Source: Acidobacteriota bacterium (GTDB lineage Bacteria; Acidobacteriota; Terriglobia; Terriglobales; SCQP01). Taken from it: a stretch of 64,000 nt of DNA. The position numbers were made by a program, and so were the translations under genes. The stretch spans positions 62,001-126,000 of the forward strand of contig DAIDIE010000040.1 of NCBI GenBank assembly GCA_027459505.1, given 5' to 3'. This document shows positions 39,989-44,518 of this stretch, piece after piece. The notes beneath the pieces were generated by a model, which did no database searches, had not been told where the DNA came from, and worked only from the letters and a program-made list of their open reading frames with translations. Position 1 is the first letter of the stretch, and the number at the start of each line of letters is the position of its first letter.

Positions 39989-40144
39989 TAGCCGCCGCAC
40001 TCTGCGGACGGAAGCCGCTGCCGGTATAAAGCAACCAATTCCCGGGATGCAGCCAGTCCGCTTTGGCCTTAAAAGGCTTTGCGGCAGACCAACTGCCTCA
40101 TCGCGACGGCTCATCTTAATCTCTTAGCACCAGGGAGATCGGCT

Positions 40145-40591
40145 ATGGACAACTCCGCGGTTTTGGACACCTTGCAGGCATTGGTACAAGCGTGTCGCGA
40201 CGGCCAAATCGGCTATCGCGATGCAGCCGAACATTTGAAGGCTACGCGCCTCAAGGCATTTTGCGAGGAGCAGAGCCTGGAGCGTGCGCGTTTTGCCGGC
40301 GAGTTGGAGAATGAAATGGAGCGTCTCGGCGACCGTGATCCCAATCGCGGCGGCTCCGCGGCGGGCGCGTTGCATCGCCGCTGGATTGATCTCAAAGCCA
40401 ATCTGGGAGGCGGTGACGACACCCTCATGTCCGCCTGCGAAAGCGGAGAAGCCAGCGCGGTACGAAGCTATGAAGAGGCGCTGCAAAAGGAGCTGCCGTC
40501 CCCTCTCCGCGCCATCCTGGAGCGGCAATTGAGTTCAATCCGCTTAGGCTGCCAGCAGGCGAAGCGCTTGAGCGAGCTACCGGCGGCCTAG
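40145..40591 (+). CDS. PA2169-type four-helix-bundle protein (DUF2383)
   Basis: A 148-residue all-helical protein. The pattern LDTLQALVQACRDGQIGYRDAAEHLK and the later DLKANLGGGDDTLMSACESGE match the PA2169 family, ferritin-like bundles of unknown function often linked to stress responses. ATG 40145 has GGGAGAT upstream. Its end overlaps the convergent esterase gene by 15 bases. Confidence 0.82.
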   Translation: MDNSAVLDTLQALVQACRDGQIGYRDAAEHLKATRLKAFCEEQSLERARFAGELENEMERLGDRDPNRGGSAAGALHRRWIDLKANLGGGDDTLMSACESGEASAVRSYEEALQKELPSPLRAILERQLSSIRLGCQQAKRLSELPAA

Positions 40592-41638: not shown

Positions 41639-42205
41639 TTATTTCCGCTTGCGCAGGCGCCAGGTCATGTTGCGCATGGCCATCTTCCAGGTCGCCAGAT
41701 CCTTCGCCACAAACTGCTTCTTCACCAGCCCCCCATGCTGAATGGCTGCCAGCATCTGCTCGGGCGGCACGCGCCGCATGATTCCTTCCTCGATCCGCAG
41801 CAGTTCCCGCAGCTCGCCGCCGGGAGCCGCGTCCACCAAAAGGGCCATTGGGGGTGCAATGCCAGTCTGGTCATTTGGTTTCAAGAGCTCCCAGGCATGG
41901 AGGAGTTCGCGGCTTTGGTCGCTGTATAGAGGGAATCGCAGTTGCAATTCACGGCTGATTTCGTTTAATGCCTCCGGGGGGTCAACGGAGATTCCGGCAA
42001 GTGCGATGCCCAGGTCGCGAAAGCGTTCCAGCAACCTGCTGTAGTCCGCCAACTGGCGAATACAGCTCGGTCACCAAACGCCACGGAAGAACAGCGTCAG
42101 GAGGCGGGTGCCGTTCACCAGTTCGCCAACTTGCACCCTGTGCCCTTCACCATTCACAACGGCGGCTGAACGCAGCTCTCTCGCCGGACTCAGCAGAGTG
42201 TTCAT
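41639..42205 (-). CDS. Redoxin/peroxiredoxin-like protein with in-frame TGA at the active site (selenoprotein candidate)
   Basis: Read through one TGA (42073-42071), this frame encodes 188 residues of the AhpC/TSA-redoxin fold. The N-terminal part ends LLTLFFRGVW, then TGA, then PSCIRQLADYSRLLERF, ISVDPPEALNEI and LQLRFPLYSD. Relatives have RGxWCPxC here, so TGA replaces exactly the first redox Cys, giving a U-x-x-C motif with Sec45 and Cys48. Coding is uninterrupted for 44 codons before and 143 after. A hairpin with bacterial SECIS features starts 4 bases after the TGA. It lies 32 bases downstream of a thioredoxin-domain gene on the same strand. Starts ATG 42205 and ATG 42211 are both possible; ribosome binding sites are weak. 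The alternatives are a nonsense mutation, or an N-truncated product from TTG 42052 that would lack the active site. Confidence 0.65.
42038..42073 (-). promoter_or_regulatory. Putative bacterial SECIS element following the TGA codon
   Basis: After UGA and CCGA the RNA pairs GCUGUA (42066-42061) with UACAGC (42043-42038). Inside, CGCC (42058-42055) pairs with GGCG (42050-42047), closing a loop AGUU. The loop is 16 bases from the UGA and carries G at its second position. Bacterial SECIS elements typically have a stem-loop whose apical loop lies about 16-37 bases after UGA and begins with a G-containing pair of bases. The fit is good; activity is inferred. Confidence 0.55.
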
Positions 42206-42237
42206 GGTCATATTGTGAGTGAGTCGGCGCTCAATTT

Positions 42238-43581
42238 CTAGCTCGCCTGCTGCAGCGCTTGCTGAATAGCGGCATTGAGTTGGGCCTTGTACAGCCCCTG
42301 GTCGAAGCCCGCCAGCCGGAAGGAGATGTTGCCCTTGCGGTTAAGCACAATCGTGGTTGGCAGTGAGTTGACGTTCCAGTAATCGGCAAGACCCTCATCC
42401 AGCCACGTGTCCGGCGTCCAATGGTGTGCGGCCACGAAGGGCGCCACGCGATTCTGGTCGGCGTCGGTGTTCACCGCGATAAACACCACGTTGGGATTGG
42501 AAGCGTATTGCTGGCGTAGCTGCTCGATATAGGGATGCTGTATTTGGCAGGGTCCGCACCAGGTGGCCCAAAAGTCCAGCACGATCACTTTGCCGCGATC
42601 GCTCTTGAGTTGGTGCGGCGCACCCTTCAGATCCTTCAGCGTAAAGTCGAAGGCGCTATGTGCCCTCTGCTCGCCCGGGTTGATCTCGGCTCTTTGCGCG
42701 GCATCGTGAGGCGCGACGACGTCGTTGAACTTCTGCAGGATCAGGTCGCCAAAACCTGTATCCGTTCCGTGGAGCTGTTTGTAGAGCGCCTCCGCCGTGG
42801 CAATTAAGCGAGCGCGCTCCGCGATTGTCGACCCCGGCAAGGCCAGAGCCAGGGCATAGGCGTCCACTGCTTTGGGGACATCTTGTTGTTTGGTGTAAAG
42901 CTCAGCCTCGTGTTGGGCCGCTTCCTCGGTGGGGGCCAGCACCAGCGATTCAGAGAGATATTTTTGTGCGCCGAAATTGTTCCCGGCTTTCTGATCGGCC
43001 GCTCCCAGAAAGAGATCGGCGAGGGCGCGCAACCGGTTCATGTCGATATTCCAGCGCGCGCTGCCAATTTCCTCTGGAACCGGCTCTTTGGCCTTCTGCT
43101 CCACAACCTGCCGCAATTCCGCCGCGTATTGCTGCGCTTGGTGGATGCTCGCGGCGTCGTTGTCCAGTAACAGCAGGTTCAGCACGCGAATACGCGCTTT
43201 GATGCTGGAGGGATCGAGCTTCTGCAGTGTTTCACTGTATTGAAGTACCAGCGCCTCGTCATTCAGCGCAGTGGCGTCCTTGATCATGATGGGGTAAATC
43301 TCGGCGGCCACGGGCGTATGGGGATGCGCCGCCATAAACGCTTGTAGTCCACGCAGCCGCGCGCCAGGCTCTCCTTCCGCCTTGCGCATGATGTCTTGCA
43401 GTTCCAGGGCCTGCTGCTGCAAGTCGTCGGTATTGGGAGCGGGGCGGCTCTTCAACCGGGGCGCAGCCTGGGGCGTAGGGGTGGGCGCCGGGCTTGAAGG
43501 AGTGGCGCGCTGCGCCATCAGGAAAACTGGAGAGGTCAAAAACAGAACAACTAGGAGACGGACAGTATTGCGAAGCAACAT
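42238..43581 (-). CDS. Exported TPR protein with C-terminal TlpA/ResA-type thioredoxin domain
   Basis: A 447-residue periplasmic protein. A signal peptide (LLVVLFLTSPVFLMAQ) is followed by a Pro/Ala linker, helical TPR-like repeats (about 50-290) and a thioredoxin domain with LDFWATWCGPCQIQHPY (WCGPC at 341-345) and the cis-Pro in NSLPTTIVL. TlpA/ResA proteins reduce disulfides or haem-protein cysteines outside the cytoplasm. It lies directly upstream of the candidate selenoprotein. ATG 43581 gives the best signal peptide. Confidence 0.85.
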   Translation of the reverse strand: MLLRNTVRLLVVLFLTSPVFLMAQRATPSSPAPTPTPQAAPRLKSRPAPNTDDLQQQALELQDIMRKAEGEPGARLRGLQAFMAAHPHTPVAAEIYPIMIKDATALNDEALVLQYSETLQKLDPSSIKARIRVLNLLLLDNDAASIHQAQQYAAELRQVVEQKAKEPVPEEIGSARWNIDMNRLRALADLFLGAADQKAGNNFGAQKYLSESLVLAPTEEAAQHEAELYTKQQDVPKAVDAYALALALPGSTIAERARLIATAEALYKQLHGTDTGFGDLILQKFNDVVAPHDAAQRAEINPGEQRAHSAFDFTLKDLKGAPHQLKSDRGKVIVLDFWATWCGPCQIQHPYIEQLRQQYASNPNVVFIAVNTDADQNRVAPFVAAHHWTPDTWLDEGLADYWNVNSLPTTIVLNRKGNISFRLAGFDQGLYKAQLNAAIQQALQQAS

Positions 43582-43627
43582 GCGTATACCGGAGATTCCC
43601 TGAAGATTCGACAAAAGTCGAATATGC

Positions 43628-44518
43628 CTACCGTTCAAAGAGCTCGAAGATGCGCTGGAAATCTTCCAGGCTGTAGTACTCAATGGTGATCGAGCCGCGA
43701 TTTTTTTTGTCTTTGATAACTACTTTGGTTCCCAAACGCCGGGCCAGCTGCTCTTCCGCCTCTCGGACATTCGGGTCGCGGGGCTTTTCCGGCTTAGGCG
43801 CGACGGCCGCGGGCGGCTGCAACGCCTGCGCCACCTTGTCTTCCACCTGGCGGACGCTCCACCCAAATTCGATGATCTGGGCGGCCATCTGGTTCTGTTT
43901 CTCCGGGTCGAGGGAAAGCAGAGCGCGGGCGTGTCCCATGCTGAGCCGGTTCTCTTCGACATGGGCCTGCACGTTGCTGGATAGCTTGAGCAGCCGCAGA
44001 AAATTGGCGACGGTGGCGCGGTCTTTACCGGTACGCTGCGCCACTTGTTCCTGCGTCAGTTGAAACCGGCTGGCAAGCTGTTGAAAGGCGCGCGCCTGCT
44101 CCATGGGGTTGAGGTCTTCGCGCTGCAGGTTCTCGATGATGGCCAATTCGAGTGCCTTCTCATCGCTGAAAGGGCGCACAATCGCGGGGATTTCTTTGAG
44201 TCCGGCGAGCTGAGCGGCGCGGAAGCGGCGCTCGCCCGCAATCAATTGGAATTTGCCCTGGTGGGGGCGGACCAGTACGGGTTGTAACACCCCCTGGGCG
44301 CGGATGCTCTGGGCAAGCTCCTCCAGCGCCGCGGGATCAAAGTGTGTGCGTGGCTGTTGCGGGTTGGCCTGGATTTCCGCCATCGTCAGCAGACGCGCCC
44401 CTTCCAGCTTGTCAGGATCGGCGGCGGGGACGGCAGCGGGAGCGGCAGCCGCTGGTGTTTTCAGGAGCGATTCAAGCCCGCGCCCCAGTGCTTTGCGCGG
44501 ATTTCCGGGAGTGTTCAC
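43628..44518 (-). CDS. parB: Chromosome partitioning protein ParB (Spo0J)
   Basis: A 296-residue centromere-binding CTPase. The N-terminus KALGRGLESLL is the ParA-interacting element. The ParB/Srx CTP-binding part has NPQQPRTHFDPAALEELAQSI and GERRFRAAQLAG, and the helix-turn-helix is LTQEQVAQRTGKDRATVANFLRLLKL. The C-terminus has the dimerisation helix. The start is GTG 44518 with GAGGT eight bases upstream, giving a 47-base overlap with parA. It would load on the parS sites at 45492-45614. Confidence 0.93.
   Translation of the reverse strand: MNTPGNPRKALGRGLESLLKTPAAAAPAAVPAADPDKLEGARLLTMAEIQANPQQPRTHFDPAALEELAQSIRAQGVLQPVLVRPHQGKFQLIAGERRFRAAQLAGLKEIPAIVRPFSDEKALELAIIENLQREDLNPMEQARAFQQLASRFQLTQEQVAQRTGKDRATVANFLRLLKLSSNVQAHVEENRLSMGHARALLSLDPEKQNQMAAQIIEFGWSVRQVEDKVAQALQPPAAVAPKPEKPRDPNVREAEEQLARRLGTKVVIKDKKNRGSITIEYYSLEDFQRIFELFER

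Follow-up and report, generated by a model that had tools for sequence, protein, structure and literature searches.

The minus-strand frame at 41639-42211 of the window (the whole 64-kb stretch of DNA analysed) very probably encodes a real selenoprotein. Its sequence argues, with little room for doubt, for a functional gene in which the UGA at 42073-42071 would be translated as selenocysteine (Sec) to give one 190 aa Prx-like thiol:disulfide oxidoreductase; it is likewise from sequence that we infer Sec insertion in the cell, the redox direction and the substrate. The preliminary description had proposed a candidate selenoprotein redoxin with RGVW-[TGA]-PSC in an open frame, and this reading is supported by the Sec machinery of the genome, the TGA column in relatives and a hairpin downstream of the TGA.

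The frame of the AhpC-TSA/redoxin-fold protein starts at an ATG at 42211, with an alternative ATG at 42205, and ends at a TAA (41641-41639). The only internal stop is a TGA at 42071-42073 of the minus strand, codon 47 from the first ATG (Sec47), in the context FFRGVW-[TGA]-PSC; 44 codons precede it, counted from the second ATG, and 143 follow, as first described. Composition by codon position is 0.65/0.46/0.70 before the TGA and 0.66/0.42/0.73 after it, resembling that of neighbouring genes, and 143 open codons are reached in 136 of 20,000 base shuffles. The read-through protein matches PF00578 (AhpC-TSA) at 66.1 bits against a curated cut-off of 26 bits, the match covering residues 17-128 on both sides of the TGA. 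Standard gene calling yields a 46 aa ORF from the ATG (42211-42071) and a 137 aa ORF started by a TTG (42052-41639), so the earlier expectation of a truncated, TTG-started gene call holds. Automatic annotation of the related genes described below would give the same kind of 46 aa and TTG-started fragments, or a pseudogene; the catalytic residue would be missed because the genes would be split at the TGA.

Relatives were sought in a set of 150 related genomes that includes the window's own, at a match threshold of E 1e-10 or better; the read-through protein has 24 matches in 23 of these genomes. Exactly one internal stop is present in 22 of the 24, always a TGA and always in the same column (22 copies, 21 genomes); the two matches without a stop, L047 and L051, are members of a longer family and carry a Cys codon, TGC, at this position. 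The alignment suggested in the preliminary description thus finds Sec or Cys at this position, and the random stop codons in relatives that were to count against the proposal do not appear. The TGA could in principle be a Cys codon (TGC/TGT) altered by mutation, in a plain pseudogene, or by a sequencing error, as one base change separates TGA from a Cys codon and Cys homologues exist; the recurrence of this TGA in 22 copies, the abundance of TGA copies in the phylum at large, the co-occurrence of the TGA gene with selA and a covarying SECIS that is missing from most Cys copies leave this explanation a negligible probability. Sequencing error, also raised at the outset, is excluded for practical purposes because the same TGA is found in 20 other genomes.

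A second explanation, that the UGA is read through or reassigned to an amino acid other than Sec (such as Trp, by a near-cognate tRNA), would account for a frame that is open through the TGA; however, the column is Cys and never Trp in homologues lacking the TGA, full Sec machinery and a SECIS are present, and TGA is the true terminator of the same gene in five relatives (L030, L031, L032, L035 and L037). The genetic code is considered unchanged because several relatives stop this gene with TGA, and such a reading is extremely improbable. A profile search of 396 genomes of the phylum finds TGA forms in many families alongside Cys forms; some members (L059, L063, L065, L076 and L081) are listed as having two TGA within the match. 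A search of the genome's contigs returns distant Cys relatives only.

A tree of 55 domains puts the window protein in a 16-member clade that is entirely Sec (support 100/96), where it is the most divergent member and has the longest end branch of the whole tree (1.84). This branch, together with an identity to clade members of only 28-36%, compared with 53% between the upstream neighbour and its homologue, would be expected of a decaying selenoprotein gene, with ancestral Sec, function being lost in this genome and a frame still open through recency. Against decay, the window copy retains all invariant residues (F41, RG, WUP, C50, QL and G117-I-A-P121), 143 codons remain open past the TGA with a codon-position composition like that of real genes, the SECIS hairpin is intact, and the fold is confidently predicted; as this is the most divergent copy of its clade, slow decay keeps a very small probability, and a functional selenoprotein gene is the preferred reading.

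Six of the relatives (L044, L045, L046, L048, L049 and L050) form a subfamily B of about 265-280 aa with the motif FYRGYWU and a SECIS form of its own; the N-terminal part of these proteins is hydrophobic with several likely membrane helices, and L049 has USSC around the TGA instead of UPxC.

The machinery for Sec insertion is found in the genome from which the window comes (4.06 Mb, 96.9% complete), where the preliminary description had advised looking for selA, selB, selC and selD and had taken their absence as a reason to abandon the proposal. Matches to selA (543 bits), selB (325 bits summed over pieces) and selD (351 bits) are accompanied by a tRNA-Sec (79.7 bits) whose anticodon is TCA as read by ARAGORN. 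Across the sampled genomes, selA is detected in 20 of the 21 that carry the TGA gene versus 41 of the 129 others (Fisher p 2.5e-8, a value inflated by relatedness); the exception, G011, has the TGA gene in a genome that is 82% complete and gives no selA or tRNA-Sec match. SelD of the host genome (L011:1420-2560) has an in-frame TGA of its own, AAGUAGKMGP, followed by a SECIS-like hairpin of 7 bp with the loop CGGTG (GGTCCAA-CGGTG-TTGGACC). SelD is apparently a selenoprotein itself, so that at least two Sec genes appear to be present in the genome.

The bacterial SECIS model as published calls for a loop of 3-9 nt on a stem of 4-16 bp located 16-37 nt from the UGA, a G at loop position 1 or 2 and a minimum free energy of at most -7.5 kcal/mol (PMC13188914). 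The hairpin of SECIS geometry noted earlier after the TGA bears this out on all four rules of that model: the upper stem-loop, UUCGCC-AGUU-GGCGGA (42045-42060, minus strand), has 6 bp, a UGA-to-loop distance of 16 nt and a loop AGUU whose second base is G and third is U, and the hairpin folds at -11.0 kcal/mol over 30 nt. In the window copy it extends to a longer hairpin (42038-42066, minus strand) through a lower stem, GCUGUA...UACAGC, with one bulged C; the 69 nt containing this longer form fold at -29.4 kcal/mol (z -3.1 against dinucleotide shuffles). Compared with synonymous shuffles, the 27 nt core of the window copy does not stand out (p 0.18); of the 22 sequences put to this test 11 reach significance at 0.05, the window copy not among them. 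This is a weak point, put down to the pairing that the amino acids themselves already favour, and the argument for a SECIS is instead carried by covariation, by the bias in Leu codons and by the Cys copies as controls.

Within the 16 members of subfamily A, three stem pairs show changes in both partners, and none of 500 shuffles and no slid register attains the covariation score; the six members of subfamily B have the loop AGUUR and two pairs that change on both sides, with a score reached in 3 of 500 shuffles, the shuffle statistics of both subfamilies being inflated by relatedness. Examples are G-C replaced by A-U and U-A by G-C. Every one of the 22 copies uses TTG or TTA for the Leu encoded in the loop, while TTR makes up 24% of the Leu codons elsewhere in these genes. 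In the wider set, the hairpin rule is satisfied by 43 of 44 Sec copies versus 3 of 11 Cys copies (p 1e-6). Built only from subfamily B, a covariance model has a single match in the 64-kb window, which is this hairpin (E 5.5e-4, a score derived partly from coding similarity). Code reassignment, sequencing error and pseudogene formation are all rejected on the TGA column, the machinery, the SECIS and the TGA terminators.

It is proposed that SelB, with Sec-tRNA(UCA), reads the UGA at 42073-42071 as Sec by virtue of binding to the in-frame hairpin that follows at 16 nt; through this decoding the two apparent ORFs would become one protein of 190 aa and ~21 kDa. Recognition of a SECIS can differ between lineages. 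The product is predicted to be a soluble, thioredoxin-fold, peroxiredoxin-like thiol:disulfide oxidoreductase, and no signal peptide is evident from its sequence. The AlphaFold model has a mean pLDDT of 87.4 and matches the folds of peroxiredoxins and ResA, the best by fold being 3hjp; the best profile match among solved structures is the BCP 2cx3 (E 1.4e-23). Profile alignment pairs WUPFC with WCPHC in a ResA variant and with FSPVC in BCP 2cx3; Sec47 therefore occupies the Thr/Ser position of peroxiredoxins, which is that of the first Cys of thioredoxins. Cys50 (TGT, 42062-42064, minus strand), the second member of the UxxC, is invariant in alignments A3 and A4 and falls in the column of the peroxidatic Cys in BCP/peroxiredoxins. 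Pro121 of the GIAxP motif (41849-41851, minus strand) lies at the cis-Pro position of thioredoxin folds and, judging by its alignment with ResA, would itself be a cis-Pro; in 2cx3 the aligned residue is Arg.

Given a selenoprotein, a Sec peroxidase with true peroxiredoxin activity is a possible but unlikely alternative to a thioredoxin-like oxidoreductase. AhpC-TSA is the best Pfam match, BCP/peroxiredoxins are the best matches by sequence and fold, and Cys50 sits in the peroxidatic column, all of which would suit a peroxidase; however, the protein has U-x-x-C where peroxiredoxins have T/S-x-x-C, resembling the CxxC of ResA, and known Sec peroxiredoxins carry TxxU (PMC13188914). The column of the Thr/Ser found three residues before the peroxidatic residue of peroxiredoxins holds Sec here, and that of the catalytic Arg, as aligned with 2cx3, holds Pro; in the strict sense the protein is no peroxiredoxin. 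The position of Sec at the Thr/Ser rather than the peroxidatic-Cys site refines the earlier reading and indicates a thioredoxin/ResA-like active site, and the protein is probably thioredoxin/ResA-like rather than a peroxidase. As a thioredoxin-like oxidoreductase it would most likely reduce or relay disulfides; by analogy with thioredoxin chemistry, Sec47 is the probable attacking residue and Cys50 would resolve the selenenyl-sulfide.

The gene directly upstream, which has the same orientation and ends 26 bases from the ATG at 42211, codes for a TlpA/ResA-like thioredoxin-domain protein with the motif FWATWCGPC (42238-43683, minus strand), and the two genes are possibly co-transcribed. A homologue of the TlpA-like protein (53% identity) is also encoded upstream of the Sec gene in L034; this shared arrangement suggests that the two proteins may act in one redox pathway. 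A DUF2383 protein (PF09537, 95.5 bits) encoded at 40079-40591 on the strand opposite to the Sec gene is considered an ordinary neighbour. Eight of the 16 clade members (L030, L031, L033, L034, L035, L038, L039 and L040) have a TAnnnT hexamer starting 11-13 bases before the start codon, in the forms TATACT, TAGAAT, TAGACT, TACACT and TATAGT; the window copy does not have the hexamer, and selD in L011 has TATACT at a comparable place, near 1466-1471. Genes with the hexamer seem to be transcribed without a leader, each from a -10 element of its own.

More tentatively, and with the odds against it, the 16-member clade may be a distinct Sec-obligate family, for which no Cys form has been found and in which Se serves a specific partner, possibly the upstream TlpA-like protein; if so, the clade would be a selenoprotein family in its own right and not a Cys enzyme that occurs sporadically in a Sec form. 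Among the open-licence papers searched none dealing with this clade was found, and no NCBIfam model reaches its cut-off for the window protein or the Sec relatives tested; the all-Sec clade seems to be uncurated, and would be a well-supported addition to the selenoproteins. The phylum-wide set, with many TGA copies, covarying SECIS elements and natural Cys controls, would be useful in training SECIS finders and in asking why some redoxin clades keep Sec.

The BCP/PrxQ and AhpC peroxiredoxins are the best solved-structure matches of the window protein by both profile and fold; they differ in having T/SxxC, with Thr/Ser at the position of Sec47, and in the Arg that 2cx3 has at the position of Pro121. 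The ResA/TlpA thiol-disulfide oxidoreductases carry CxxC in exactly the columns of the UxxC, with an NCBIfam score of 28 bits versus a cut-off of 170; ResA is extracytoplasmic and Cys-based. The thioredoxin-fold SelL-related redox protein (NF040769) ranks with the best NCBIfam matches for every Sec member tested, at 29.2 bits for the window protein and 51.4 for the best relative tested, both far below the cut-off of 120; SelL proper has UxxU, whereas the window protein has UxxC.

The closest likeness is to the Prx-like UxxC selenoproteins, including the 'Prx-like 1' of ocean metagenomes (PMC1088965, PMC1794560, PMC2398784, PMC13188914). Sec-containing Prx-like proteins in which UxxC replaces TxxU were described in 2005 (PMC1088965), in line with the earlier statement that Sec is established in bacterial peroxiredoxin-like UxxC proteins. 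The current list of prokaryotic selenoproteins includes a 'Prx-like thiol:disulfide oxidoreductase, PF00578, UxxC' (PMC13188914), of which WP_010940744 is a published member. The window gene has the features tested for this kind, namely PF00578, UxxC and an in-frame UGA followed by a bacterial SECIS, and on these shared features it is assigned to it; its clade would differ from the other Prx-like UxxC selenoproteins in the motif RGxWUPxC and in being all-Sec in the genomes searched.
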